A DNA stretch of 36,575 nucleotides, taken from positions 1 through 36,575 of the IMG/VR virus record IMGVR_UViG_3300030329_003889. The stretch is one strand, 5' to 3'. Position 1 is the stretch's first letter; the number at the start of each line of letters is the position of its first letter. Positions 8,007-35,524 of the stretch are shown piece after piece. Below the pieces are notes generated by a model. That model did no database searches and was not told the origin of the DNA. It saw nothing but the letters and a program-made list of their open reading frames with translations. The translations under genes were made by a program, and so were the position numbers. The DNA is from a virus.

Positions 8007-9650
8007 ATGACAATAAAAAGATACATAGCAAACGCTGACAATACAATTACTAATGCTTTTAAGCCCAATCTCTCCACTCGCGGCACAGGCTCGAACATGG
8101 GGTTGGCGGATTCATTGGAGATTTTTTCAATCTATGGTCAAGCTTCTAGTAGTGCTGAACAATATTCGCAAGAACTATCAAGAGTGTTGGTTCAGTTCCC
8201 AGTTGATGAGATAGCCGCAGACAGGACAAATGGTGATATACCGGCTAGTGGAAGTGTATCTTTTTACTTAAGATTATATAATGCGGAGCACCCGTTTACG
8301 CTTCCCTCAAATTTTGATCTATGTGTTCATCCAATAAGGCAAGTATGGGCCGAAGGCCGTGGCCTGGACATGGATGAATACTCCGATCTAACATATGACG
8401 GCACTGGCTCTAATTGGCTTCGTGCATCATCCGGCTCAGGGGGCGTTGTAAGTTGGACCTCCCCTGGTGGTTATTACTTCGGTGAGGACGCTCCGGCAAC
8501 CACCCACACTGTCAATTTCCAAAAGGGAACTGAGGATTTAGAACTTGATATTTCGGAATTAGTGGAACAATGGATAAAGGGCTCTTCAGGAGGCGGAAAA
8601 GCTAATTATGGAGTTATCGTTAAATTAACAGGCTCATTAGAAGGTTATTCTGCCACAACCGGTGACGACAACATTATCACGAACACTACAGGATCAAGAG
8701 AGTCTTATTATACCAAAAAGTTTTATGCTAGAGGCAGCGAGCACTTCTTTAAAAGACCTTGTATTGAGGCTAGATATGACGAATCAAACAAGGACGATAG
8801 AGGAAACTTTTATTACAGCAGTTCTCTAGCTGATGGTGATTCAAACCTTAACACAATATATTTATACAACTACGTTCGAGGTAAGCTGGCAGACATTCCA
8901 GGCATTGCCACAGATTATAGTGGAAAAATTTACGTTTCATTCTTCTCAGGTAACTTAGATAATGACGCAATATCAGATACCCCAAAGCCGCTTCACTGTG
9001 TAACAACTACAGATTTTGTGTCGTCGGGTAACCCACATGTGGTTACGGGCGGATATGTGTCAACGGGAATTTATTCAGCATCTGTTGCTTTGACGTCAGC
9101 AGCCTCACCGCTGACTAGAATTTTTGATGTTTGGTGGACAGGAAGCCATTCACAACAATCTTCTATAACGTCGGGGGCCACCCGATTCACCACCGGAAGT
9201 TTCGCCCCAGAAACCTTATTAAGTTCACCAATATACGAAACTCCGGTTTATAGTAGCAAAATAACAAACTTAAAATCAGTCTATGGTCCGAAGGAAAAAA
9301 CAAGATTTAGACTCTTCATCCGTGAAGTTGGAGAAGATTACAATGTATTTTCTAAGGCCACAAATGAAGCACAAAATACAATTATTGAAGATGCTTATTA
9401 CAGAGTGTTTAGAGTTGCAGACGATTTTGAAATTATAAATTTTGGTACGGGATCTTCAGCCCCAGGAGCCTTTCAGGCAAAGACTGACTATACAAGACTC
9501 TCGTTTGACGTTTCTGGAAACTACTTTGATTTCGATACCTCTCTTTTAGAAAACGGTTACTCTTATGGAATAAAATTCGCATATTATGACGGCGAGACAT
9601 ATTTAGAACAGCCAGAAGTTTTTAAATTTAGGATCGAAGATAAGACATGA
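8007..9650 (+). CDS. Virion structural protein with DNRLRE-like carbohydrate-binding-type domain
   Basis: A 547-residue, beta-rich, Gly/Ser/Thr-rich protein. Residues about 28-215 resemble a DNRLRE-type jelly-roll module: an early ADSLEIF segment, an SRVLVQFPV strand, and DISELVEQWIKG followed by NYGVIVKL. This matches the family's 'L-DVT-xxV-xxW-xxG ... NxGxxL' pattern. These modules are found on secreted and surface proteins and are thought to bind polysaccharide. The C-terminal half is repetitive beta sequence without a recognised domain. It sits between the gp6/J gene and the 3,016-residue protein, overlapping the latter by ATGA, so it is probably a baseplate-associated decoration or receptor-contact protein (inference). 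The domain call rests on pattern memory, not a profile search. Confidence 0.75.
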   Translation: MTIKRYIANADNTITNAFKPNLSTRGTGSNMGLADSLEIFSIYGQASSSAEQYSQELSRVLVQFPVDEIAADRTNGDIPASGSVSFYLRLYNAEHPFTLPSNFDLCVHPIRQVWAEGRGLDMDEYSDLTYDGTGSNWLRASSGSGGVVSWTSPGGYYFGEDAPATTHTVNFQKGTEDLELDISELVEQWIKGSSGGGKANYGVIVKLTGSLEGYSATTGDDNIITNTTGSRESYYTKKFYARGSEHFFKRPCIEARYDESNKDDRGNFYYSSSLADGDSNLNTIYLYNYVRGKLADIPGIATDYSGKIYVSFFSGNLDNDAISDTPKPLHCVTTTDFVSSGNPHVVTGGYVSTGIYSASVALTSAASPLTRIFDVWWTGSHSQQSSITSGATRFTTGSFAPETLLSSPIYETPVYSSKITNLKSVYGPKEKTRFRLFIREVGEDYNVFSKATNEAQNTIIEDAYYRVFRVADDFEIINFGTGSSAPGAFQAKTDYTRLSFDVSGNYFDFDTSLLENGYSYGIKFAYYDGETYLEQPEVFKFRIEDKT

Positions 9651-12600
9651 GTTTAAAGGATTTATTCAAGCAAGGAAAATCAAAAATTCTTGTTGCAAAG
9701 AGTACTGAGGAAATTGGCCAAGAGGCTGAGTCCGAGAGGTATGTCTATGAAAGATCCCAAGATCAGAAGCGTGTTATACCACAAATCGACTTTTCACAGC
9801 CGAAAAACTTTGCAAAATTTGGTTCTGCTGAAGAATATTATGCACAATCGATTGCAAGAATTTATAACACGTATCCTTATGACGGCTCAAGATATGAGAA
9901 ACAAGCCTGGGAAAATAGCTCCTCGTACCTAGATCTCTATGTTCTTGAGGAATTATATCCTAGAACTAACGGATATGCAGTTTTTTCACCAGACGATGAA
10001 GGAAATGGTTGGGGAAATAAAGCCGCAACAGTTGGAGCTTATGATAAGTCTTCAGATTTAGAATATATCTTTTTGAAGGGTGGCCCGAATCCGAACAATG
10101 ATAGCGGAGAGATTCAGAAAGCGTTTCCTAATTTAGAGACCAGAAGGTCTGGTAACGTGGGTGCAAACATTTATGATCTTGCAAAAAATAGAGAATCTAA
10201 TTTAAAGCTCGATGCTGCCGATGGTAATACAGTTGAGTTTTGGTTAAAGAAGCCAAATTTTCTTTCCGATATTAATGGCGGCGGTTACGAAGTTTTATTT
10301 GACTGCTATACCACTAGCAGTCTTTCTTCCTCACTTGATTATGGCCGTCTTCGAGTCGAGTTGACAGGAAACACTTCTGGCTCACCATTCAGAATTACTT
10401 TTATGTCCGGAACAAACGGTCTTTTCAGAGAGACCATCGGTGACGTAACGACCTCCTCAGTTGGAGACGATAACTGGCATCATTACGCATTCGTGCTTAA
10501 GAATACAGGATCTTTAGGCCCAGTGTCTGCATTAAACAAGCCACCGGTAACTCAAAATAATAGAAAAGATATTCAGATCGATTTTTATGTTGACGGGAAG
10601 TTGAACTCAAGCGTTATAACAGGTTCTACTATCGACTACGTTAGCGGGGCTCTAGTGGCCACTGTTGGCGCGTTAGCAGCTTCTCCCTCTGGTACAGCCG
10701 GAGGAACCATTCAGACCGCTGTAGGCACTGATATGCAGGCTATGAGGGGATATGGTAAACTATCCGGTTCTGTTGACGAATTTAGATTTTGGAAAGAGGC
10801 AAGAACAGCAAAGCAGGTTGGCTTAAATTGGAAAAGTGCACTTGGAGCGGGAACCAATTTAGACGACGCAAATACGCAATTGGGCGTTTATTATAAATTT
10901 AATGAAGGAATTACCCAAACAGCCAGTGTGGACTCGAATGTGTTAGATTATGCCGGTAGAGTTACAAATGGAAATTGGGTTGGCTATGAAGCCGCAGGTC
11001 GTTCTACTAATTCAGCTATTGTAGAGTCAAGTGCTTCTGCCGAAGAGTTTAAAGATCCTATTGTATACTCTTTCCATCCGGACGTCAAAAGTCTGAAGGA
11101 AACCAAAGAGTTAGAGGGTCGAGTTTATGACTACAACAACCCAGGAGGCTTTTATAGAACATTCCCAGATTGGATGTTGGCGGAAGACAATGAGACTGAG
11201 AAGGGTCTCTTGAGATTGACTCAAATTATGTCAAGCTATTTCGACTCCTTATATCTCCAACTTAAGCAGTTGCCAAGAATTAAAGACGTACAATATGTAA
11301 GTTCAAGTATTGGCGCTACAGGTAGTTATAAACCGCTGCCATTTGCGGATAGAGTATTAGAATCTAAAGGGTTTATGACCTCGGAAATCTTTGCAGATTC
11401 CACGATTGTGGAGCAGTTTTTAGACAAAGACGATAATAAACTTTTCACTGAAAAGCTTTCCGACGTTAAAAACTTAATATATCAGAATATTCATAATAAC
11501 CTAGTTGAAATCTACAAGACTAAAGGTACAGAAAATGCCTTTAGAAACTTTATTAGATGTTTCGGTGTAGATGACGAACTTATTCAATTAAACGCTTACA
11601 CAAATAACGAAGTGTTTGAGATAAGAGATAATTATCGATACCGTTCAGAGAGAAAGAACTATGTCGACTTCCACACTTATGGAGATCACGACGCGAATGT
11701 ATACCAGTTTAAATCTGGCTCAAACAGCGCCGGCTTTATATCCGCTTCGCAAGCACAGTTCTTCGAAAAGGGTATGGCTCAAACTTATGAGTGTGAGTTT
11801 ATAGCTCCTCCTCCGTGGCCAGCAGCGTCAACAGGATCTCTTTATTATAATTCTATATCTTCTTCCGTGTTTGGCGTACAACAAGTCAATTATAAATCTG
11901 ATGGGACCGTCGACGAAACAGACACAAGTTTTGAACTAACAGCCGCTGACGACTTCGCGAACTTCCAAGTTTTCCTTGCTAGAGACGAAGTTGGCTCAAA
12001 CTCAGCTAAGTTTGTACTGACCAGTTCCAACGCCAGTGGTATTCAGGAGCTTACTAGTAGCTTCTTTAGAGATCTTTATGATAATAGAAAATGGAACCTT
12101 GCAGTCCGAATCGTTCCCAAGGCTAGCCCATGGGAAAACACAGTTCACGGCACAAGTGATGAAAACGGTTATGAAGTCCAGTTTTATGGCGTAAACTATG
12201 ATGCTAACACTGTTAGAGATAGCTTTTATTTAACAGGTACTTTGATCGGAGGTGACGCCCGAGGAGATGGCTTCCTCAAGAATGGTAAGAGAATGTATAT
12301 TGGTGCATTGAGAACTAATTTTACAGGATCTCTTGTATCCGGATCAGACTTGAAAATATCTTCAACTAGGGCATGGATGGCGAATATCTCGAATGAGGAG
12401 ATCAACGCTCACGCTATTGACGCTAGCAACATGGGTTCCCTTCATCCATATAGATCAGCCTATTTGTTTGAGAACTCCTCATCGGTCGCTCCAATTGCAA
12501 AGGTAAAACAAGGTAACAACCAATATGTGCCAAGTCTCGCCACATTGGCTTTAAACTGGGACTACAAGACCCTAACAGGCTCCTCAGCCGGAGGAACATT

Positions 12601-15600
12601 CTCAGTCGTTGACTTCTCTTCTGGCTCGGCGGAAGACTTTGATAGGTACCGTTGGTTAGGTAATGTTCTTAAAATGCAACACCCGGGCCGTGGTGGCAAT
12701 TTTAGAACAAACCAGACAAATGTGGTTGATACAAACTATGTTAATTCAGCAAAACAACAAGACCCAGAAACAGTTGTTGGCTTAGATATGATCAAATCTC
12801 TTTCTCGTGATGATGTTCAGTTTACTAGAGAGAGTAGGCCAATAAGTTATTTCTTCATGCTTGAGAAAAGCATGTACAAGGCTGTGACTGAACAAATGCT
12901 GAATTTCTTTGCAACGGTCAAGGACTTCAATGATCTGATTGGTTCACCAGTTAATCGTTACAGACAAGACTACAAGGCTATGGAAAAGTTAAGAAATCTC
13001 TTTTTCGAGAGAGTCGACAACACCCCAGACCTTGATAAGTATATTGAGTACTATCGTTGGTTAGATACTTCAATTGGAGAAATGGCCGAACAACTGTACC
13101 CAGCTTCTGCTGCTCATGCAAAGGGCCTTAAAACGGTTGTTGAGAGTCATGTTCTCGAAAGAAATAAATATAGACATCAATACCCCTCGGTGGAACAAGC
13201 CAGAGATTATGACAAACTTTTATCCACTGAAGAGCAGATGCAATCAGAAAGGGACACGTATCTACAAGATGCTTCTGGTGAATACGGCACCCAGATACAA
13301 CCAAAATCGGCTAGCCCTCTTGATACCAACACTTCTTTCAACTGGTGGAACTTACGAGCGGAAAGAGACAAAGCCGATGAAATTTCTTCAGGCGACTCCA
13401 CGGTTGATAAAAACAGAGAACAGCTTCGAAAAGTTATTGCTAATCATAAAACTCTAGCTTTGGGAGCCGCTTTCTACAGAAGAGGTACAAAACAAAGTCT
13501 CAATGACGTTTTTAATGCCCCTAACAAGAAAGGCACAACGCTGGTTAAGATCTCGCACGATTTCGCAGGTGGTACAAACTCCATAAGAGGGGCAAACACA
13601 GGCTTGATCGAACCCAATCTGAATATAGAGGGAAATTCTGTTCCAACGTTACGATCCGATCAGAAACCGGATACTCAAGACCCAATAACAAACGCCGAAG
13701 AAATTAATGATATTAGATTCCCAAAAATTAAAATGGAACCGAAAATTAATGTTTTGGATGAATCCTATGGAGCTAGGCGTCAAACAAGGAACACACAGGG
13801 CTTGCCTTCTCTTTATAGTAGTAGTGCTGGTCTTGAGTTTACGAACGTACAACAGAAGGTGTCTCATGGGGCTGAAGTGCCAATGCAGGGTCCGTTTGTT
13901 GAGAGAGTGGTTGGTGGTTTTGCCGACAGAACAGTGCCAATTAGCTCCGGTTCTCAAGATGAGACCACAAGAGTTGAAAGGTTTAGATTATCTGGAGAAG
14001 CTTCTGCTTTAAACTCTGGCACGGATGTTAACATTCACCCTCCTAGAAAGACTGCTGCTGGTACTGAAAATCTTAACTTACCTAGAACTGACATCAACAA
14101 GGGTATTAAGAGTGTTTACAATCTTAGCAACGTTTTACAAGCAACAGCTTCTGGACAACAAAAAACTACTATAATTGGTAATTTTGATGATAATTATCAA
14201 ATTGTACAAACTTCCGGAAGAAGTGAAAATAACTTGTGGTTCTCAAAAAATTCCGGTAGTGTCAACAGTACAACACCAGAAGTACCTTTCTTAACAGGAA
14301 ACTTAGATTATGAAATCCCAGAGAGGACTATCCATAAATCAGTTATTGTTGAGAGATTCTCCGCGCCTGGAGGTTTTGAAGTAAATTCAGTTGGTTATAT
14401 GGATCCGCAAGCAGAAGAAAAATCTGTATATAATGCGCTCCCATTCAGAAACCGATCAGTGTTGGACGGCTCCGGTAGTTTATCTGGCTTGACACCACCA
14501 ACAGATAGAAACGACAGAACACATATAGATGTATACACAAGAATACATCCAGCATGGGGTTCTGGCTTGAACGAGCTTTCTCGTAAGCATACTGGCAAGT
14601 TTGGAATTGATAGTAACTTTGGAGAGATTGTCGCAAATGATTATGATACAACAGGTTCATACCATAAGCAACACAGAAACACAAAAAGAATTATAAAGCT
14701 TGGAAACGCAGCTAACGATGTGTTGGGTGTTTACAATGGCGCTCGACACATAACAGCCTCCGTATATAACAATTTATTTTACAATTCTTTATTACCACAG
14801 AGCGAACTACAATATGCCTGGATTAGTGCTTCATTGGATAACGCACCAAACCACCCGCTTGTCGGGTACACTTCAACTCAAAAGGGATATAGCGGGCAAG
14901 TTTCCGGTGCAAACGGTTATGAGGACCCAATTAAATTTTTAGATGGTGAATCCCCACAATATTCCGGATACTCTTCAGATCTAGTTGGGTTGAACACTTT
15001 GGTTCTCAATGAACTGGTTACAGGCAGTAACTTAATCTCAGCTTCAACAGATTATAGAAATGTAGAACTTGCAACAGTTACAAGCGGCGAACAGTTTCAT
15101 GTTCTTTTGAAACACAGAAACTCAAACCAGGGCGCAGGCTGGAGACTAAACATAAAAGAAAGCAACCCTCTTGTAAGAAGCCAGAGAGAAAATAATATTA
15201 TTGATATTGTTGATCTAAGCGAGGTTGCCAAAAGCTCGAAAGACGCTGGGTCAGATTATGAAAAGAGTAAGAATACCAAGAAGATAAGAAAGACAGTTAA
15301 CAAGTTTACAGTCCCGCCAGTTTCCTCGAAGTTCAAGCCGTTGGTTCATGTTCTGAGTGATAGCGTAGGCGACGTCATGTCTATAAAGGATTCATATTCA
15401 AGTAATTTTAACTTCATGCCAATCACAGAACTAGATTTCAAACTAGGAGTGAGGCAGACAGAAAAGCAGGTTCATGACGTAATTGTCGAAGACGCTCTAA
15501 ATGATGGTGTCTCTATGGAAAGAGTTACTTATTCCGAAACAGTACATCCAAGAGAAGAAAACACGTATTTGAGCAAAGTACGAGGCCGCTTGACATTAAC

Positions 15601-18600
15601 AGAAGAGAGCGGCAGCGCGGACATTAATAGAAGACTCGGTACAGCAAGAACATTTTGGAAAACAGCCCCCGGTGACAGGAGAAGAACTAGCACTCATGAA
15701 GCCTTAAACTCCATGGATTATCTTCTGTCTCAAGAGGCCGGCTCAGGTTCGTTCGACGGCTCAGGAAATTCTTATAATCACCTTAGAGCCTTTTCACCAA
15801 GTTTATCAATTTGGCCTCTTGATGCAGGTTATCTGTCAAACTCATTCGGAGAAAGCTTTAATAATTATTGGTTTGACCCTTCAGGAGGATCAACAAAATC
15901 ACAAGAACCTCCACAAGGCCACTTCTATCAACAGCCAAATGGAGAACTCTTAACACCGGTTATTTACCAGTTGATTGAATCAGTGGATGCAAAGGCTTTT
16001 ACCCCTACTGACGCTAACTTCCAATGGAGAGGCCCGGGCACAGCTTCTCAGCAGTTCTTATTCCCGAATGATTGGACATTGAATCTTTCAGAATCCGACG
16101 GCACGATTGGCTCGAACAGAAACTACGACGTTAAATTCTTGACTTACAATTTTTATCGTATTAATGATCAGTCTGGAAATAGACCATTCTTTAACACATA
16201 TGTTGATTTCGCAAAAGATATCAGGTCATTTGCAAAAGACCACACCGTGTTGCCCGAGTTTAGAATTTCTGAACACATGGACTATTATGTTGATGAGGGA
16301 TTCTCTTTTAACAATAGATTCTTAAGCCTTGAGGGAACAAGTATCTCCGCTAGTGCAGACACAGAAAAGGGCGAATATACAGAAGAATTCTTCAAATTAT
16401 ATTCTCATTCCGACTTTATGCAGCAATTTGCAAAATTCGATAGTAATGATAATGACATTAGTAAAATGTCTTTGACGTGCCATGGTGTTAAGAAGCTTCT
16501 ACCATACAATGGGTTCTATCCCGTGCTAAGAACCACACAGTTAGGTTCACTATTCTCTCAGTCGTTTGGACCCTTTATAAGCGGATCTGCGGCAGCGCAA
16601 ACAGGCTCCTTTGAGCCGGAAAGAATGAATTCATTGCTTCAGCCCTTCTTTGCGCCTGGAATTATGTACAATACTATTAAATCCGGCATCGCGGTAGACT
16701 TCCCTGTTGTTACCGGTACGCTCCCAGCGGGAGCAGGTCTTCGAGGTTATTTCCGAAGAGCCGGCGCAACTCAAGGACAATTCTACAACTATAGAATGCC
16801 GTTTGAAGCCTTGGTCGAGCCGCAAAGATATATTCCAGTTAACCACTCTGGCTCTGAATCCGAGGAAGCAAATATTTCGTTCTTATATAACTGGACAGGA
16901 AGCTCCGGTGTAAACCCACCAATCTTCCCAAATCCAGTATTCGCTAATTGGAGCGGTAAAAGTAAATTAAACTTTAATCTCGCTATGAATAATTTCTTAG
17001 CAGAGGTTCCAAATTTCTTCTTAAGAAACCAATCTTTTACGAGCTTCACTTCAGCACCGGAAAAGAAATTTAAGACCATGAAATCTGGTTCAACTTATTA
17101 CATGGACATAGAGTTGTTCCAAACAGATGAAATGGTAATGGCGCAAGGCTTGTCGGAGGTTCCTCTTCAAGAGGTAACTTCAAGTGCTTCAAGTTTGAAG
17201 GGCCTTGTCAACAACAATTATCGCGGCCAAATATTTGGCCCAGCGGTTCAGTACTTCGCAACAGGCGATAATATTGCCCACCCTAACTATGCTGCGGGGC
17301 AAGGCGCGTACTATTCCGAAACCCGAAACATGGCGGATCCCGCTTTCGCTCCTCACACACCACCATATTTTTATGGACCTGCAATTGCAAGAGTGGCATT
17401 CACCCCAAACGACCATATAGAATTGCTAGAAGACGAGTCGAGATTCTTTACTTTGGACGAGATCTTAGCAGGTTGTAGAATAGAGACAGTTTATACCTCT
17501 AGCTACACAGAAGAAACTAATTGGTTACATCATGCTAGAACGAACAAATACCCCGCTGGTTTATCCCAAATGAGGATTACTTCTTCAGTTAATTTGTTTG
17601 GAAAGAGCAGCGTCAAGAAAGTTCAGTACGAAGCCTCTGCCGAACAAGCCGGCAAATTCATTCCGGCTACAGCAACGGACCCTGACGACTCTTCATTTGA
17701 TGTTTGGACAATCAGTCCTAAATTTGAGTGCCCCGTGGTGAACGTTTCTGGATCTACAGTATCTTCTTCGGCAAACCCATACTCAACTCTGAAAGAGGCT
17801 TCCCTCGGATACCAAACAGGAAATAGTGATGACTGGGCAAATAAGAAGTCGAACTTCGGATTTGTTCACTCCGTTAAATCAGTTTGGGGCCAGCTAGGTG
17901 AAGTACCAAGCGGCTCAGAAGGTATCTTCTTAAGACTAAAAGAAAGCTACCCAGATATAATCGAGAACCCCGCTTCTGGCGATCAGTTGACCGGCTCGCT
18001 CATTGATATTTGCGGCTTCGAAGAGGCTCAGAAGAGAGTAGGCGAGATAGCTGATCAAAAAGTAATTTCCGAAGCTGTTGTCGCAATACCGTTTGTACAG
18101 AAAGGTGGAAAACGTAAGTTCTTCGAACTTTTAAGATCACAAATCGACTTCGCGCAAGGAAAAGCAAACAAGAAACAAATTACTTCCTTGGAGAAAACCG
18201 GTAAGACCCCGGGTAATTCAATTATAAACATGGTTGACTCGTTAGAGAACTATGTGTTACCGCCTCACATGGACTTCATAAATAACAAGTCCATCACTCC
18301 TTACGCAGTGTATGTTTTTGAATTTACACACGTTTTGGACAAACAAGATCTTTCAAATATTTGGCAGAACTTAATGCCAGAGATTTCGAAAAAAGCAGAA
18401 CAACAAGAGGTTACGGTTTCACACAGCCTGGGAACAAATGAGTTCTTCTCAGGAAAGGAGATCCCAGCGGAAACACAATGGATGGTCTTCAAGGTGAAGA
18501 AAAGAGCCGCCTACAATTATTTCGCAGCAACAGCGGATTCAACCGACGACGACCGTTTCGCATTCCAGTTTGAATTTGGTGGAGAAAAGAAAACTCCAGA

Positions 18601-18697
18601 TTACAGCTATAATTGGCCGTATGATTACTTCTCTTTGGTCGAGTTGGCAAAGATTGACGCAGAAGTAGAGTTTACAAAAAAGAAGCCTGAAGGATAA
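9647..18697 (+). CDS. Giant baseplate/tail protein with two LamG-like regions and a gpI/gp7-like region
   Basis: A 3,016-residue protein occupying a quarter of the window. Visible parts: a conserved-looking N-terminus (about residues 60-110, with RIYNTYPYDGS and YPRTNGYAVFS); a LamG/concanavalin-like jelly roll at about 193-447 (VEFWLKK, DNWHHYAFVL, IDFYVDGKLNSS, GSVDEFRFWKEARTAKQV); a region at about 503-657 resembling phage tail protein I (FPDWMLAEDNETEKG, then IYKTKGTENAFRNFIRCFGV); and a second, weaker LamG-like region at about 714-928. Residues 1080-1185 contain DLDKYIEYYRWLDTSIGEM and VVESHVLERNKY. The rest is long, beta-rich and unassigned. Its position after gp25 and J parallels P2 W-J-I and T4 25-6-7, so it may be the wedge partner of the gp6-like protein with receptor-facing additions (inference). 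Start ATG overlaps the previous stop by four bases. Confidence 0.85.
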   Translation: MSLKDLFKQGKSKILVAKSTEEIGQEAESERYVYERSQDQKRVIPQIDFSQPKNFAKFGSAEEYYAQSIARIYNTYPYDGSRYEKQAWENSSSYLDLYVLEELYPRTNGYAVFSPDDEGNGWGNKAATVGAYDKSSDLEYIFLKGGPNPNNDSGEIQKAFPNLETRRSGNVGANIYDLAKNRESNLKLDAADGNTVEFWLKKPNFLSDINGGGYEVLFDCYTTSSLSSSLDYGRLRVELTGNTSGSPFRITFMSGTNGLFRETIGDVTTSSVGDDNWHHYAFVLKNTGSLGPVSALNKPPVTQNNRKDIQIDFYVDGKLNSSVITGSTIDYVSGALVATVGALAASPSGTAGGTIQTAVGTDMQAMRGYGKLSGSVDEFRFWKEARTAKQVGLNWKSALGAGTNLDDANTQLGVYYKFNEGITQTASVDSNVLDYAGRVTNGNWVGYEAAGRSTNSAIVESSASAEEFKDPIVYSFHPDVKSLKETKELEGRVYDYNNPGGFYRTFPDWMLAEDNETEKGLLRLTQIMSSYFDSLYLQLKQLPRIKDVQYVSSSIGATGSYKPLPFADRVLESKGFMTSEIFADSTIVEQFLDKDDNKLFTEKLSDVKNLIYQNIHNNLVEIYKTKGTENAFRNFIRCFGVDDELIQLNAYTNNEVFEIRDNYRYRSERKNYVDFHTYGDHDANVYQFKSGSNSAGFISASQAQFFEKGMAQTYECEFIAPPPWPAASTGSLYYNSISSSVFGVQQVNYKSDGTVDETDTSFELTAADDFANFQVFLARDEVGSNSAKFVLTSSNASGIQELTSSFFRDLYDNRKWNLAVRIVPKASPWENTVHGTSDENGYEVQFYGVNYDANTVRDSFYLTGTLIGGDARGDGFLKNGKRMYIGALRTNFTGSLVSGSDLKISSTRAWMANISNEEINAHAIDASNMGSLHPYRSAYLFENSSSVAPIAKVKQGNNQYVPSLATLALNWDYKTLTGSSAGGTFSVVDFSSGSAEDFDRYRWLGNVLKMQHPGRGGNFRTNQTNVVDTNYVNSAKQQDPETVVGLDMIKSLSRDDVQFTRESRPISYFFMLEKSMYKAVTEQMLNFFATVKDFNDLIGSPVNRYRQDYKAMEKLRNLFFERVDNTPDLDKYIEYYRWLDTSIGEMAEQLYPASAAHAKGLKTVVESHVLERNKYRHQYPSVEQARDYDKLLSTEEQMQSERDTYLQDASGEYGTQIQPKSASPLDTNTSFNWWNLRAERDKADEISSGDSTVDKNREQLRKVIANHKTLALGAAFYRRGTKQSLNDVFNAPNKKGTTLVKISHDFAGGTNSIRGANTGLIEPNLNIEGNSVPTLRSDQKPDTQDPITNAEEINDIRFPKIKMEPKINVLDESYGARRQTRNTQGLPSLYSSSAGLEFTNVQQKVSHGAEVPMQGPFVERVVGGFADRTVPISSGSQDETTRVERFRLSGEASALNSGTDVNIHPPRKTAAGTENLNLPRTDINKGIKSVYNLSNVLQATASGQQKTTIIGNFDDNYQIVQTSGRSENNLWFSKNSGSVNSTTPEVPFLTGNLDYEIPERTIHKSVIVERFSAPGGFEVNSVGYMDPQAEEKSVYNALPFRNRSVLDGSGSLSGLTPPTDRNDRTHIDVYTRIHPAWGSGLNELSRKHTGKFGIDSNFGEIVANDYDTTGSYHKQHRNTKRIIKLGNAANDVLGVYNGARHITASVYNNLFYNSLLPQSELQYAWISASLDNAPNHPLVGYTSTQKGYSGQVSGANGYEDPIKFLDGESPQYSGYSSDLVGLNTLVLNELVTGSNLISASTDYRNVELATVTSGEQFHVLLKHRNSNQGAGWRLNIKESNPLVRSQRENNIIDIVDLSEVAKSSKDAGSDYEKSKNTKKIRKTVNKFTVPPVSSKFKPLVHVLSDSVGDVMSIKDSYSSNFNFMPITELDFKLGVRQTEKQVHDVIVEDALNDGVSMERVTYSETVHPREENTYLSKVRGRLTLTEESGSADINRRLGTARTFWKTAPGDRRRTSTHEALNSMDYLLSQEAGSGSFDGSGNSYNHLRAFSPSLSIWPLDAGYLSNSFGESFNNYWFDPSGGSTKSQEPPQGHFYQQPNGELLTPVIYQLIESVDAKAFTPTDANFQWRGPGTASQQFLFPNDWTLNLSESDGTIGSNRNYDVKFLTYNFYRINDQSGNRPFFNTYVDFAKDIRSFAKDHTVLPEFRISEHMDYYVDEGFSFNNRFLSLEGTSISASADTEKGEYTEEFFKLYSHSDFMQQFAKFDSNDNDISKMSLTCHGVKKLLPYNGFYPVLRTTQLGSLFSQSFGPFISGSAAAQTGSFEPERMNSLLQPFFAPGIMYNTIKSGIAVDFPVVTGTLPAGAGLRGYFRRAGATQGQFYNYRMPFEALVEPQRYIPVNHSGSESEEANISFLYNWTGSSGVNPPIFPNPVFANWSGKSKLNFNLAMNNFLAEVPNFFLRNQSFTSFTSAPEKKFKTMKSGSTYYMDIELFQTDEMVMAQGLSEVPLQEVTSSASSLKGLVNNNYRGQIFGPAVQYFATGDNIAHPNYAAGQGAYYSETRNMADPAFAPHTPPYFYGPAIARVAFTPNDHIELLEDESRFFTLDEILAGCRIETVYTSSYTEETNWLHHARTNKYPAGLSQMRITSSVNLFGKSSVKKVQYEASAEQAGKFIPATATDPDDSSFDVWTISPKFECPVVNVSGSTVSSSANPYSTLKEASLGYQTGNSDDWANKKSNFGFVHSVKSVWGQLGEVPSGSEGIFLRLKESYPDIIENPASGDQLTGSLIDICGFEEAQKRVGEIADQKVISEAVVAIPFVQKGGKRKFFELLRSQIDFAQGKANKKQITSLEKTGKTPGNSIINMVDSLENYVLPPHMDFINNKSITPYAVYVFEFTHVLDKQDLSNIWQNLMPEISKKAEQQEVTVSHSLGTNEFFSGKEIPAETQWMVFKVKKRAAYNYFAATADSTDDDRFAFQFEFGGEKKTPDYSYNWPYDYFSLVELAKIDAEVEFTKKKPEG

Positions 18698-29860: not shown

Positions 29861-30382
29861 ATGATATTGGGGCTAGATATATCCACTTCTATAGTGGGCG
29901 CAACAGTTCTTAATGAGGCTGGAGAAATGGTTTATTGTGAAGCGTGGGATCTTCGCAACAAAACTAAATTCCCAGATTTATATTCCAAGGCCGTATTTGT
30001 TAGAGGAAAGCTGTGGGAAGTTGATGATGAGTTTGGTATAAACAAGATTTTTATTGAACAATCGTTGTTGGCCTTCCGACCCGGACTCTCGTCCGCAAGA
30101 ACAATCTTTACATTGGCCAAATTTAATGGGATAGTATCTTACATATGTCAAGATTGTTTTACAGAACCAGAATATATTGGAGCCTCCACTGCAAGAAAAG
30201 CTTGCGGTATAAAAGTACCGAAAGGAAAAAAAGCAAAACAAACAGTTTTAGATTTTTTACTTGACAATGATAGTAGTTTTAGTGTAGAGTATACAAGACA
30301 TGGAAACCCAAAGCCTGGAAGTTATGACCGGGCAGACTCTTATATCATTGCGAAAGCCGGATGGAAAAACACACAATCTTAA
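29861..30382 (+). CDS. ruvC: RuvC-like Holliday junction resolvase
   Basis: A 173-residue RNase H-fold nuclease of the RuvC type, which cuts four-way DNA junctions in pairs of strands. The four acidic residues expected at the metal site are present with RuvC spacing: D6 in ILGLDIS, E66 in IFIEQSL, and D156/D159 in YDRADSY (E. coli RuvC: D7, E66, D138, D141). Length equals the bacterial protein (about 173 aa). In phages such enzymes resolve replication and recombination intermediates before packaging. The gene lacks an evident ribosome binding site and has a TATAAT just upstream. Its 3' end overlaps the primase gene by 22 nt, and the SbcD-SbcC fusion follows, so the three look like one recombination/replication unit. 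Confidence 0.88.
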   Translation: MILGLDISTSIVGATVLNEAGEMVYCEAWDLRNKTKFPDLYSKAVFVRGKLWEVDDEFGINKIFIEQSLLAFRPGLSSARTIFTLAKFNGIVSYICQDCFTEPEYIGASTARKACGIKVPKGKKAKQTVLDFLLDNDSSFSVEYTRHGNPKPGSYDRADSYIIAKAGWKNTQS

Positions 30383-31302
30383 AAGATATACTTGGTCGTC
30401 CTTTTGTTACGAATGACGAACATCAATATTATTGTCCTTATTGCAAGCATCATAAAAAGAAGATGTCTGTCAATATAGACAAGAACGTATACAAGTGTTG
30501 GATTTGTGATATACATGGTCGTAATATCAGAAGAATTGTAAAGAGATTCGGCACTTATGAACAACTGAAAACATGGGATACTCTCTCTGGAAAGGAAAAT
30601 ATATTAGACTTTGACAAGCTTTTTGAGGAAGTGTCAGAAAAAAGAATAAAAAAATACTTGACATTACCAGAAGAGTTTGTTACACTAACAGGTGAGAACA
30701 AAAATCTATCATCAATTAAAGTACTAAATTATCTCAAAAATAGAGATATTGCAAGAAAGGATATTGTTAAGTGGAAAATTGGTTACTGCGTCAGAGGTCA
30801 ATATCAAGGCCGAGTCATAGTGCCTTCGTTTGGAATAGACGGAAGAATCAATTACTTCGTAGCAAGAACTTATACCGGAGACTGGAAAAAGTATATTAAC
30901 CCTTCAGTCGCAACTAGCGACATTATATTTAATCACTTGTTTATAGACTGGAACAAAGACGTGGTGCTCGTTGAAGGCATATTTGACGCAATCCGCGCAG
31001 GCTCAAATGCCATACCACTTCTTGGTTCCACCTTAAGGACCAACAGCTTGTTATTTCAGGAAATAATTAAAAAAGACGCTAGCGTATTTGTCGCATTAGA
31101 TGAGGACGCTAAAAAGAAATCAACCAAAATCATACACACTCTTCTGTCTTATGGGGCAGAGGTGTTTTTGATTGATACTTCCGGTCACGAAGACGTAGGC
31201 AGCATGACCAAGGAAGAATACCAATATAGAAAAGAGCATGCAAAACTTGTCAACCCTGACACGTTTATGGTGGAAAACGCTCTAGATTCTATAAAAATTT
31301 AG
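30361..31302 (+). CDS. dnaG: DnaG-like DNA primase (zinc-binding plus TOPRIM)
   Basis: A 313-residue phage primase, which makes short RNA primers for lagging-strand synthesis. Residues 25-49 form a zinc-binding site of four cysteines (C25, C28, C46, C49; YCPYC and KCWIC). Residues about 150-180 match the primase core (GRVIVPSFGIDGRINYFVAR, then KKYINP). The TOPRIM motifs follow: VVLVEGIFDAI with E205, and FVALDED with D247 and D249 as metal ligands. A late DVGSMTKEEYQYRK segment also occurs in phage primases. It is much shorter than bacterial DnaG (about 580 aa) and has no helicase or helicase-binding domain attached, comparable in size to T4 gp61 (about 340 aa). ATG 30361 overlaps the RuvC-like gene by 22 nt. 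The replicative helicase is not in this window. Confidence 0.88.
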   Translation: MEKHTILKDILGRPFVTNDEHQYYCPYCKHHKKKMSVNIDKNVYKCWICDIHGRNIRRIVKRFGTYEQLKTWDTLSGKENILDFDKLFEEVSEKRIKKYLTLPEEFVTLTGENKNLSSIKVLNYLKNRDIARKDIVKWKIGYCVRGQYQGRVIVPSFGIDGRINYFVARTYTGDWKKYINPSVATSDIIFNHLFIDWNKDVVLVEGIFDAIRAGSNAIPLLGSTLRTNSLLFQEIIKKDASVFVALDEDAKKKSTKIIHTLLSYGAEVFLIDTSGHEDVGSMTKEEYQYRKEHAKLVNPDTFMVENALDSIKI

Positions 31303-31310: not shown

Positions 31311-34300
31311 TTGAAATTCGCCCATATAGCAGATACCCATATTAGGAATCTTAAATACCATTATGAATATAGAGAGGTCTTTAAACAGATCTTTGAAACC
31401 TTAAAGAAAGAAGAGGTGGACTATATCGTACATTGCGGTGACTTGGCTCACACAAAGACTCAGCTAAGTCCTGAATACTTTGATATGGCACAATGGTTTC
31501 TTAAGAGTTTGGCTGATATTGCGCCAACATACATAATCCCCGGTAATCACGATGGAAATCTAAAAAACAGTAGTCGCCAAGATGCAATCACTCCAATTGC
31601 CGAAGCACTGAATCACCCGAACCTTTATTTGCTGAAGGATTCCGGAGAGGTTAAATTGGACGAGACATTTTGTCTGAATGTTTTATCCGTATTTGATGAA
31701 GAGAATTGGACCGATCCAACTGACTCAGATATGGTAAACATTGCATTGCACCATGGATCAATCAGTGGCTGCAAAACAGACCAAAACTGGGTCATGGAAT
31801 ATGGCGAGCACGATATACAAATATTTAAAGAGTTTGACTATGTGTTTTTAGGAGATATTCATAAGACAAATCAGATTCTAGACGACGATGGTCGTGTTCG
31901 ATATTGCGGCTCTACTGTACAGCAGAACCACGGAGAAACGAACGACAAAGGTCTTTTACTATGGGACATTACTGACAAGGAGACATTTACATGTCGACAC
32001 ATTCAGTTTAATAATCCAAAACCATTCGTGACAGTAGAATTAACACCAAAAGGTAAGATTCCACGAAAAGCACAAGTGCCTGAAAATGCAAGACTTCGTG
32101 TCGTATCTAGGAACAATTTACCACTGAATGTTCTTAAGAAGGCGGTAGAGGTCGCCAAAACCAAGTTCAACCCAGAATCTGTAACCTTCTTAAATAAATC
32201 TACTGGTAATAGAGGGAATGTCGAGAACCTAACCAGCAATCTCCAGCAGGAAGATTTGAGAGATGTGGGAGTCCAAGAGAAGTTTATACGAGAGTATCTT
32301 AAGGATTATGACCCCTCAGAGGAAACAATGGATAAGGTTTTAGAACTCAATAGGAGGTTTAACACAACTGTTGAAGAGGGTGAAGACGTTATCCGCAATG
32401 TAAACTGGAAGATCGATTCTGTCGAGTGGGACAATTTATTTAACTACGGAGAAGGCAATAGAATCAACTTCGAGAACCTAGACGGCATTATCGGTATTTT
32501 TGGAAAGAATTATTCTGGTAAAAGCTCGGTAATCGACTCTGTTCTTTATACCATGTTTGACAAGACTTCTAAGATGAATAGGAAGAATCTAGACGTTATC
32601 AATCAAGATAAAGAATATTGTAGAGGCAAGGTGCATATTTCCATCGGAGATAGCTCCTACTCTATAGAAAGACAGTCAGATAAATACTTGAGGACCTTAC
32701 ATGGTAAAACGACTACAGAGGCTAAAACAAACGTGGAGTTTGGAAAGTCTAACGTAGTTACGGAAGTAGAGCAGGAACTCAACGGCCTAACCAGACAAGA
32801 TACAGATAAGCAAATCCGTAAGGTTTTCGGAACCTTTGATGACTTCTTGTTAACTTCCATGGCTTCACAGATTGATTCTCTTTCTTATATTAAAGAAGGG
32901 TCTGTAAAGAGAAAAGAAATTCTAGCTAAGTTTCTAGACTTAGAGATTTTTGACAAGAAATATAAATTAGCAAAGGAAGAAACAGGTGATCTAAGGTCTG
33001 CAATCAAAAGACTGGAGGAAAAGGACTTCGCAGCAGAAATAGAGGAGGCCGAAGGCAGTCTTGAAGACAACTCTAAACTCACTAAAAGTAAAAAGAGGGA
33101 GTGCACAGCAACGAAAAAGAGAATTCAGAAGTGTAACGAGGAACTCAAAGAGATCGACAGAATGATTGATTCGATTCCAGCCGAAATCATTAATTGTGAT
33201 GAGGTTAGGCAGGAACTTGAAGACAAACAAGAGGAGATGCAACAGGTTATAAAGACCAATCAGGCTTACGAAGAGAAGATAGCCGAACACAAAGAGTTTC
33301 TTGAGAAGGTAAACAACCTTAAGAATGTTTTTAATATTGAAGAATGCTTCGAAAAGAAGGAAATAATCGCAGAGCATAAAAAGACTCTAGACGATTTGCA
33401 TTCTGAGATCTCTCAAAAGAATAATAAATTAGAGGATCTTAACAAAAGAATTAAATTGCTGGAAGAGGTGCCGTGTGGAAGCGAATATTCACATTGTAAG
33501 TTCATTAAGAATGCCTACGACGCAGAAGCAGAAGTTGATATTATAGCTCAGGCAATCAAAACGCTTGAGGCTGACGCACAGAAAGTTGATAGTGATATCA
33601 AAGACTTGGACCCCGAGACGGTAGAAGACTATATTGAGAAGTATAAGGATGTTTCGGAAAGAGAACAGGTGGTAAAAGAGGAAATCTCAGATCTTTCTCT
33701 GACAATTGAGAAGAACAAGAGTGTTATTATTCAGCTTCAGTTAGCGATTGATACACTCAACATTAAACTAGCTGAATACGAGGTCAACAAAGAAGCTATT
33801 GAAAACTTAGAGAAGCTTATCAAGCAGAAAAGAGAACTCAATACTAAAATTAAAGATGACAATTTGATTCTCGGGGGCTGCGAAAAAGAGCTTCTACAAC
33901 TTCATAAGACTCACGGCTCCCTAGAACAGCAGTTACAGAACCTTCATGATCAAGAGGACGAGCTAGAGGGCCTCCGCTTAGACTATGCCGCTTACGATCT
34001 CTATGAGAAGTGCATGAGATCAAAGGATGGAATCCCATATGATATCATTAAAAACAAGTTACCGGTCATTAATGAAGAGATTGCCAAGATTTTATCTAAT
34101 ATCGTTGACTTTGAGATCTTCTTTGAGACGAGCGATAAAAAACTGGAAATCTACATTAAGCACTCTAAGTATGGGCCACGGCCCATTGAGCTTGGTTCTG
34201 GTGCTGAGAAGACTATTGCTTCCATGGCTATCAGGCTTGCGTTACTTAGCGTATCGAATCTCCCCAAGGCGGATCTATTCGTCCTTGATGAACCGGGAAC

Positions 34301-34469
34301 AGCCTTAGACGAAGATAACATGGAAGGTTTCATTAGAATCTTGACGGACATGATTAAAACACAGTTTAAGACAGTCTTGCTGATTTCGCATTTGGATAGT
34401 TTGAAGGATTGCGTAGACATGACGATTGACATTGATAAGGTTGACGGATTAGCGCACATTAATCAGTAA
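31311..34469 (+). CDS. sbcCD: Single-chain SbcD-SbcC (Mre11-Rad50) recombination nuclease/ATPase
   Basis: A 1,052-residue fusion of two proteins that are usually separate (T4 gp47 and gp46; SbcD and SbcC). Residues 1-350 are a Mre11-type metallophosphoesterase: D8/H10, D44 in HCGDLAH, GNHD at 78-81, H147/H148, and GDIH at 181-184. Residues about 365 onward are the Rad50-type ATPase: FNYGEGNRINFENLDG, Walker A GKNYSGKSS (398-406), Q520, long coiled coils (about 550-720 and 735-890) around a turn with C722 and C729, ABC signature LGSGAEKTI (961-969), Walker B LFVLDEPGTALDE (989-1001) and the H-loop ISHLD. It would resect or process double-strand ends and hairpins using ATP. It follows the primase by 8 nt with a TTG start. 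No internal stop or frameshift is present. Confidence 0.9.
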   Translation: MKFAHIADTHIRNLKYHYEYREVFKQIFETLKKEEVDYIVHCGDLAHTKTQLSPEYFDMAQWFLKSLADIAPTYIIPGNHDGNLKNSSRQDAITPIAEALNHPNLYLLKDSGEVKLDETFCLNVLSVFDEENWTDPTDSDMVNIALHHGSISGCKTDQNWVMEYGEHDIQIFKEFDYVFLGDIHKTNQILDDDGRVRYCGSTVQQNHGETNDKGLLLWDITDKETFTCRHIQFNNPKPFVTVELTPKGKIPRKAQVPENARLRVVSRNNLPLNVLKKAVEVAKTKFNPESVTFLNKSTGNRGNVENLTSNLQQEDLRDVGVQEKFIREYLKDYDPSEETMDKVLELNRRFNTTVEEGEDVIRNVNWKIDSVEWDNLFNYGEGNRINFENLDGIIGIFGKNYSGKSSVIDSVLYTMFDKTSKMNRKNLDVINQDKEYCRGKVHISIGDSSYSIERQSDKYLRTLHGKTTTEAKTNVEFGKSNVVTEVEQELNGLTRQDTDKQIRKVFGTFDDFLLTSMASQIDSLSYIKEGSVKRKEILAKFLDLEIFDKKYKLAKEETGDLRSAIKRLEEKDFAAEIEEAEGSLEDNSKLTKSKKRECTATKKRIQKCNEELKEIDRMIDSIPAEIINCDEVRQELEDKQEEMQQVIKTNQAYEEKIAEHKEFLEKVNNLKNVFNIEECFEKKEIIAEHKKTLDDLHSEISQKNNKLEDLNKRIKLLEEVPCGSEYSHCKFIKNAYDAEAEVDIIAQAIKTLEADAQKVDSDIKDLDPETVEDYIEKYKDVSEREQVVKEEISDLSLTIEKNKSVIIQLQLAIDTLNIKLAEYEVNKEAIENLEKLIKQKRELNTKIKDDNLILGGCEKELLQLHKTHGSLEQQLQNLHDQEDELEGLRLDYAAYDLYEKCMRSKDGIPYDIIKNKLPVINEEIAKILSNIVDFEIFFETSDKKLEIYIKHSKYGPRPIELGSGAEKTIASMAIRLALLSVSNLPKADLFVLDEPGTALDEDNMEGFIRILTDMIKTQFKTVLLISHLDSLKDCVDMTIDIDKVDGLAHINQ

Positions 34470-34501: not shown

Positions 34502-34708
34502 ATGAGTGAGGAAATGAAAGCAAAATTAGACCGCTGGATGGAACGTTGGGCCTCCAGAAAACTTATTGTATGGGCAACAGCGACAGCGTTCCTTGCATTT
34601 GACAAACTTGGTTCAGATGAATGGGTTGCAGTAGCTCTGGCTTACATTGGAATTGAGGGTCTGGCTGATATCGCCACACGCTGGAAGCACGGTGACAATC
34701 GACGATGA
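34502..34708 (+). CDS. Small membrane protein, holin-like
   Basis: A 68-residue protein with a charged N-terminus, a hydrophobic segment at about residues 20-34 (KLIVWATATAFLAF), a short Asp/Gly loop, a second hydrophobic segment at about 40-57 (EWVAVALAYIGIEGLADIA) and a basic C-terminus (RWKHGDNRR). Size, two predicted membrane segments and a basic tail fit a class II-type holin, which forms the inner-membrane lesion at lysis. The following two genes also encode membrane-associated coiled-coil proteins, supporting a lysis cluster. The gene has a strong ribosome binding site and its stop overlaps the next ATG (ATGA). The holin function is inference; no family match could be run. Confidence 0.68.
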   Translation: MSEEMKAKLDRWMERWASRKLIVWATATAFLAFDKLGSDEWVAVALAYIGIEGLADIATRWKHGDNRR

Positions 34709-35112
34709 CTTGGTTGGCTGTGAAAAATTCTATATCCAAAGTATGGATATGGTGTAAGCACAATTGGAAGATCGTTGCCCTATTGGTCTATACGCTCCTC
34801 CTTTACCTCTTATTTAGCAAGAACGCTAGAAACGCTAAGAAGATGCTTGAAGACCAAAGAGCGGCTCACAAGGCAGAATTAGAGGCTTTAGAGAAGGCAT
34901 ACCAAGAACAATTGCAAAAAAAAGACGAGAACCTTAAAAAATATAAGGAAACTCTTGAAGCAATCGAGAAAAAGCTTGAAGATGAAAGCAAGAAGATAAC
35001 AGAGCAACAAAAACAAAGAGTTAAAGAAATTATAGAAGAAACAAAGGACGATCCGAATAAGCTGGCGGAACTAATTAAAGAAGAGTTTGGATTCGAGGTT
35101 TGGGATGACTAA
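34705..35112 (+). CDS. N-terminally anchored coiled-coil protein, inner-membrane spanin-like
   Basis: A 135-residue protein with one N-terminal membrane segment (about residues 21-38, IVALLVYTLLLYLLF) followed by a continuous Glu/Lys/Gln-rich coiled coil (about 40-122) and an acidic end (FEVWDD). This topology is that of Rz-type inner-membrane spanins, which join inner and outer membrane at the end of lysis. It sits directly after the holin-like gene, overlapping by 4 nt, and directly before a secreted coiled-coil gene that it overlaps by 8 nt. An overlapping Rz/Rz1-type pair is common in phages. Alternatively it could be a generic membrane-anchored structural or lysis-regulating protein. Confidence 0.7.
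   Translation: MTWLAVKNSISKVWIWCKHNWKIVALLVYTLLLYLLFSKNARNAKKMLEDQRAAHKAELEALEKAYQEQLQKKDENLKKYKETLEAIEKKLEDESKKITEQQKQRVKEIIEETKDDPNKLAELIKEEFGFEVWDD
35095..35098 (+). promoter_or_regulatory. Ribosome binding site favouring ATG 35105
   Basis: GAGG lies 6 nt before ATG 35105. A TTG at 35087 in the same frame would add six residues ahead of the signal peptide. The ATG gives a clean signal sequence and is preferred. Confidence 0.5.
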
Positions 35113-35524
35113 ATTTATTTCAATAATATTATTAATAGTCTTCCCTTTGACAGCAGCGGCAGAGCTTCCACAGGTCGCTCCCCTGAACGAGGGAGATCCA
35201 GCGCCATATAGCGGCGTGTTATATAATGCTGCCGCTGTAGCCGAGACAATTGCCCAAAGAGAAGCTCTAATCGCACAACACAACCTTAATTTAGAGATCT
35301 TGGAAGAGAGATTAAAGGCTGAATGCACCCTCCAGTTGGATAATTTAACCGCAGATCTAGATTTATGTAATCAAAAATATAATTCTATGATAGAAATAAA
35401 GGACCAGCAAATCAAAAACTTACAAGAAATGGCCTTGGAAAACAATAATTCTTCATGGTGGTTCTTAGGCGGGATTGGCACCGGCATACTACTTACTGTA
35501 GGGGTTGTATACGCCCTTAAGTAG
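35105..35524 (+). CDS. Secreted coiled-coil protein with C-terminal membrane anchor, spanin-like
   Basis: A 139-residue protein when started at ATG 35105. Residues 1-19 form a signal peptide (TKFISIILLIVFPLTAAA, predicted cut before E20). There is no cysteine near the cut, so no lipobox. After a short PLNEGDPAPYSGVLY segment comes a coiled coil (about 45-112) with two cysteines (C74, C88), then a C-terminal membrane span (about 118-137, FLGGIGTGILLTVGVVYAL). The layout is like that of a unimolecular spanin but with an ordinary signal peptide rather than lipid attachment. Together with the preceding overlapping gene it may form an envelope-spanning lysis complex (inference). I recall similar GDPAPY-type small phage proteins without firm function. 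Confidence 0.7.
   Translation: MTKFISIILLIVFPLTAAAELPQVAPLNEGDPAPYSGVLYNAAAVAETIAQREALIAQHNLNLEILEERLKAECTLQLDNLTADLDLCNQKYNSMIEIKDQQIKNLQEMALENNNSSWWFLGGIGTGILLTVGVVYALK

Follow-up and report, generated by a model that had tools for sequence, protein, structure and literature searches.

Positions 31311 to 34469 of the window, by which we mean the whole analysed stretch of 36,575 nucleotides, hold a single open reading frame in which the nuclease Mre11 (SbcD) is followed by the ATPase Rad50 (SbcC). The window sits in a 64.7-kb virus record that also encodes baseplate wedge proteins, the large terminase, a portal, a head protease, the major capsid protein and a tail sheath; by these genes, the record is a fragment of a myovirus. 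The features of the locus are as follows.

30361..31302, plus strand: DnaG-like primase with CHC2 zinc finger and catalytic-core matches (Pfam, PHROGs), a conserved neighbour
31311..34469, plus strand: Mre11/SbcD-Rad50/SbcC fusion gene, 1052 aa, TTG start (frame, Pfam, PHROGs; fused in relatives)
31311..32015, plus strand: metallophosphoesterase (Mre11 nuclease) domain, residues 1-235 (Pfam, motifs, model)
32016..32201, plus strand: capping (DNA-binding) region, residues ~236-297 (fold and position, secondary structure of the model, Mre11 structures among the matches)
32265..32378, plus strand: Mre11 C-terminal helix-loop-helix predicted to contact the Rad50 coil root, residues 319-356 (model, alignment)
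32379..32402, plus strand: connector between the two proteins, residues 357-364 (alignment; no in-frame ATG/GTG/TTG)
32403..32942, plus strand: Rad50 N-lobe, residues 365-544, with Walker A 398-406 and Q-loop Q520 (motifs, model)
32943..33467, plus strand: Rad50 coil, ascending arm, residues 545-719 (model)
33471..33497, plus strand: hook apex, residues 721-729, P-C722-x6-C729 (motif, alignment, model with apex 720-729)
33498..34016, plus strand: Rad50 coil, descending arm, residues 730-902 (model)
34032..34466, plus strand: Rad50 C-lobe, residues 908-1052, with signature 961-969, Walker B 989-994 and H1027 (motifs, model)

An earlier note, made from the sequence alone, had claimed that one uninterrupted frame carries the motif sets of both proteins, and the 1052-aa frame indeed gives profile matches to both halves. 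In Pfam, Metallophos (calcineurin-like phosphoesterase) matches residues 1-185 (E 1.7e-15) and AAA_23 (SMC-type AAA) residues 374-613 (E 8.7e-11), and SMC_N extends over residues 370-1031 with an E of 1.2e-7, under its own cut-off. Among the PHROGs, residues 1-356 match the SbcD-like phrog_100 (E 6.6e-39) and residues 183-1046 the SbcC-like phrog_77 (E 7.4e-55), and the sbcd and Rad50 models of NCBIfam also match, all under their curated cut-offs. Having SbcD and SbcC profiles in one ORF, the protein falls among the Mre11/Rad50 fusions as these were understood in 2011 by Yoshida, Claverie and Ogata (PMC3175470). Judged by its sequence, its motif content is far beyond chance. The TTG start is preceded by the Shine-Dalgarno-like AGGAG, and the 1:1 ratio that the note ascribed to the fusion follows directly from the sequence.

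All five phosphoesterase motifs of Mre11/SbcD are present (D8xH10, GD44xxH47, G78NHD81, H148 and GD182IH184), with two ligand-type substitutions. D8, H10, D44, N79/H80/D81 and G181/D182/I183/H184 are invariant or nearly so in 56-81 relatives. The motif positions given earlier hold across both halves except for the histidine of motif IV, which had been placed at H147 and is H148; the latter is invariant, and residue 147 is Tyr in most relatives. Compared with cellular Mre11, the protein has GDxxH in place of GDxxD and D182 in place of P. furiosus H206. The same two substitutions, His for the third Asp of GDxxD and Asp for P. furiosus His206, have been reported for Mimivirus R555 (PMC3175470), and here both GD44LAH47 and GD182IH184 are invariant in the relatives. 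Because two ligand positions differ, metal use may differ from that of cellular Mre11.

The second half contains everything expected of Rad50/SbcC, namely Walker A, Q-loop, signature, Walker B, H-loop and a pair of coils. Walker A 398-406, Q520, S963/G964/E966/K967 of the signature, D993/E994 and H1027 are invariant or nearly so, again in 56-81 relatives. An AlphaFold2 model of the whole fusion (mean pLDDT 82, pTM 0.48) has all the Mre11 and Rad50 modules in order, with a pTM at which the relative placement of the domains is not fixed by the prediction. Structural matches in the PDB include Chaetomium Mre11-Rad50-Nbs1 (MRN), E. coli SbcCD and T. maritima Mre11:Rad50, and the best viral matches in BFVD are giant-virus fusions, Tupanvirus first (E 4.6e-60).

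The order at the junction is Mre11 N-terminal and Rad50 C-terminal, with the capping and helix-loop-helix regions kept and a short linker between the proteins. The model retains the gp47-type C-terminal helices 319-330 and 337-356; the natural C-termini of the gp47 proteins of T4 and the cyanophage S-B68 align to residues 356 and 357, and the Rad50 proteins in the alignment begin just past these ends, by about residue 365. It had been suggested that a linker of about residues 335-372 may replace the Mre11-Rad50 interface, an idea that the retained helices in the model and the gp47 alignment contradict. What remains as connector is about 8 residues ahead of the first Rad50 strand at 365, conserved in length. 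This fits the 2011 study, which put at 9-12 the number of extended residues needed to span the 28-angstrom gap in the T. maritima complex (PMC3175470).

The primase lies upstream of the fusion with a gap of 8 bases, and of the 90 loci with enough flanking sequence, 87 have a primase homologue upstream, at a median gap of 87 bases. This arrangement fits the phage primases reported on marine scaffolds carrying R555 homologues (PMC3175470). Two other regions of the window deserve a mention. Just downstream of the fusion, positions 34705-35524 hold a frame with a weak Rz-like spanin match (135 aa) and then an overlapping 145-aa frame whose N-terminus is hydrophobic, a possible lysis cassette as far as the sequence tells, and a 3016-aa frame occupies positions 9647-18697, downstream of the baseplate wedge genes.

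Fusion of the two proteins as such has been known since 2011, and that of Bacillus phage 0305phi8-36 is a published case. Besides Mimivirus R555, the 2011 study described twelve further Mre11/Rad50 fusions, one of them from a Bacillus phage, and argued that the abundant R555 homologues of aquatic metagenomes are viral, many of them probably phage-borne (PMC3175470). Beyond that paper we found no further named descriptions of such fusions in the open-access literature, which is weak evidence that there are none. Split genes are the rule in T4, cyanophages, Herelleviridae and T5-like phages. The statement of the earlier note that T4, T5 and bacteria encode two proteins is incomplete: besides the fusions published in 2011, fused ORFs occur in annotated phages under other names, including Microcystis phage Mel-JY01, Xanthomonas phage XacN1 and uncultured jumbo phages.

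The known systems differ from the window protein in several respects. By its published description, Mimivirus R555 shares the Mre11-Rad50 order, the capping and helix-loop-helix regions, the short connector and the two substitutions, but it has 1351 aa against 1052; the window protein, for its part, comes from a myovirus, and its hook is CX6C. The Mel-JY01 protein (WWT39521, "AAA domain containing protein") is likewise a single-ORF fusion, 30.6% identical over the full length, with a DnaG-like primase just upstream and one small ORF between; unlike the window protein, it belongs to a separate clade and has a CXXC apex (CKHC). T4 gp47/gp46 have the same domains and presumed task, and the last residues of gp47 align with residue 356, but they are encoded by two genes with two small ORFs between them, the Rad50 is shorter (560 aa), the hook is CXXC and the nuclease motifs are GDxxD and GHxH. 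E. coli SbcCD has the same nuclease-ATPase architecture in two proteins; its SbcC, at 1048 aa, exceeds the Rad50 part of the fusion (about 690 aa), so its coils are longer, and its hook is CXXC. The split pairs were concatenated in silico and placed in a tree with the fusions. One fused group there comprises the window clade together with the Mel-JY01 clade and two jumbo phages, and XacN1 ORF305, a single-ORF fusion of 1099 aa, falls among the T4-type split proteins. Long branches call for caution, but the topology suggests that fusion occurred more than once, and XacN1 ORF305, itself on a long branch, is possibly an independent fusion.

Quite probably, the product of the gene is a myovirus machine for processing DNA ends in which Mre11 and Rad50 (SbcD and SbcC) form a single chain, working as follows. 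Domain order, catalytic residues, continuity, conservation, the retained interface helices and the primase neighbour are observed; the dimer, the activity and the role are the most likely ones given what is known of the family and the T4 precedent. Two identical chains would most likely form the usual M2R2 particle as a homodimer. In this arrangement, paired phosphoesterase domains would contain the two-metal nuclease sites, and closure of the ABC heads on ATP would control how DNA reaches them; the nuclease would be tethered to the Rad50 coil root by the retained helix-loop-helix, and the coils would meet at the cysteine hook. By analogy with T4 gp46/gp47, whose role is summarised in PMC3175470, the likely task is to resect or open phage DNA ends and hairpins for recombination-dependent replication, and degradation of host DNA is a possible second role. 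With its fixed stoichiometry and fairly short coils, a 1052-aa single-chain complex would lend itself well to structural and biochemical work.

That an assembly error or a frameshift joined two normal genes might be suspected from the fact that the window comes from a single metagenomic contig and that split genes are the rule in the phages named above, yet the relatives leave this a negligible chance. A scan of IMG/VR returned 408 contig stretches, of which the best 80, 52-80% identical, were kept; the junction is open in all 80, and the whole protein lies in a single frame in 79, the exception (L060) being truncated where its contig stops. Single-ORF fusions also occur in two cultured phages, Mel-JY01 and XacN1, and the connector length is conserved. 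We therefore reject an artefact, and related contigs, which the earlier note had named as the check on continuity, nowhere show the two separate genes that would have told against it. Separate gp46/gp47 genes elsewhere in the same phages were also considered and rejected: in 13 large records (64.7-204 kb, including the window's own fragment and the cultured Mel-JY01), no second strong match to phrog_77 or phrog_100 was found, the sole strong SbcC-like and SbcD-like match per record being the fused gene and the extra matches being weak (E 8.5e-4 to 7e-6). The fusion is real, well conserved and near-universal among the relatives, and it is the only Mre11-Rad50 found in this clade.

It could also be that the fused chain is separated later by proteolysis, or that extra Rad50 arises from an internal start, so that a normal two-protein complex results. 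The connector is short and probably exposed, and an ATG at M340 follows a GAGGA-like sequence; however, the nearest relatives do not conserve M340, translation beginning at it would truncate the interface helices, residues 355-370 contain no in-frame ATG, GTG or TTG, and no conserved internal start at the junction was found in the window sequence or the alignment of relatives, which makes separation very unlikely. Somewhat less remote, but still improbable, is a role mainly in conflict, that is, in degrading the host genome or cutting the DNA of rival phages or plasmids, rather than in phage replication. T4 gp46/47 are annotated as needed for host DNA degradation as well, and SMC-like complexes act against foreign DNA in defence systems (PMC10586767); the conserved primase neighbour and the presence of the gene in every relative better fit a core replication gene, and a single-chain replication machine remains our preferred reading.

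The R555-like genes of aquatic metagenomes, "probably phage-borne" in 2011, can now be tied to a concrete clade of uncultured myoviruses. A cellular origin was rejected: most of the 13 GTDB loci lie on small MAG contigs, one of the loci (L090) equals an IMG/VR locus (L055) in length and position, and binned phage is likelier than bacterial genes. L092 (CP070664.1, a 2.8-Mb MAG "chromosome" labelled "WOR-3 bacterium") includes a phage fragment that shares 61% identity with the window protein and whose frame ends near a run of N, and it is likely a chimeric scaffold. Plasmids gave four weak partial matches, none of them fused. In a 484-kb uncultured phage (LR756508.1, L083:2944-7166), about 0.9 kb of sequence interrupts the fusion gene immediately behind GDIHK; it contains a 305-aa frame with zinc/HNH-like motifs and resembles a homing insertion, intron or intein, in the active site of the nuclease.

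What makes the locus interesting is this link to a phage clade together with the alternating hook, rather than the mere fact of fusion; the hook is the least expected and fresher observation. The canonical Rad50 hook is CXXC (PMC9569753), and the window protein has CX6C instead, keeping two cysteines. Among the window and the best 80 of 408 relatives, 74 of 81 have a C-x6/7-C apex, and in seven (L044, L049, L057, L063, L064, L065 and L075) the apex is YDPxCxxC and resembles that of the Mel-JY01 clade. These seven require six changes on a heads-only tree, and holding them as one clade is rejected for the heads (p 2.7e-42) and for the coils minus the apex (p 4e-5); L063 groups with L041 by its heads and with L057 by its coils. 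The set was extended to 119 orthologues by adding CXXC carriers from a pattern scan, a sample thus chosen for CXXC type, and it divides into 74 C-x6/7-C and 45 CXXC with zero intermediates; its heads-only tree needs 11 apex changes, at least nine of them forced by well-supported branches.

From these sequences, the alternation looks like modular exchange of the dimerisation tip, repeated conversion being the other option. Such modularity is plausible because in yeast the MukB hinge can take the place of the Rad50 hook (PMC6969161). We offer only tentatively the fuller proposal that the tip is a dimerisation module that can be swapped, exists as two discrete alleles (P-C-x6/7-C-xF and YDPxCxxC..xFVKDA) and is exchanged or converted repeatedly and independently of heads and coils, perhaps stopping cross-pairing of Rad50 chains from co-infecting relatives. 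If the alternation is confirmed, partner specificity encoded by the Rad50 hook becomes testable. No non-CXXC hooks were found described in the open-access literature, which is weak evidence of their absence. A distant Mre11/Rad50 fusion on a human gut phage scaffold (MT837445.1, L087) also has a C-x6-C hook, CPVENPECRF.
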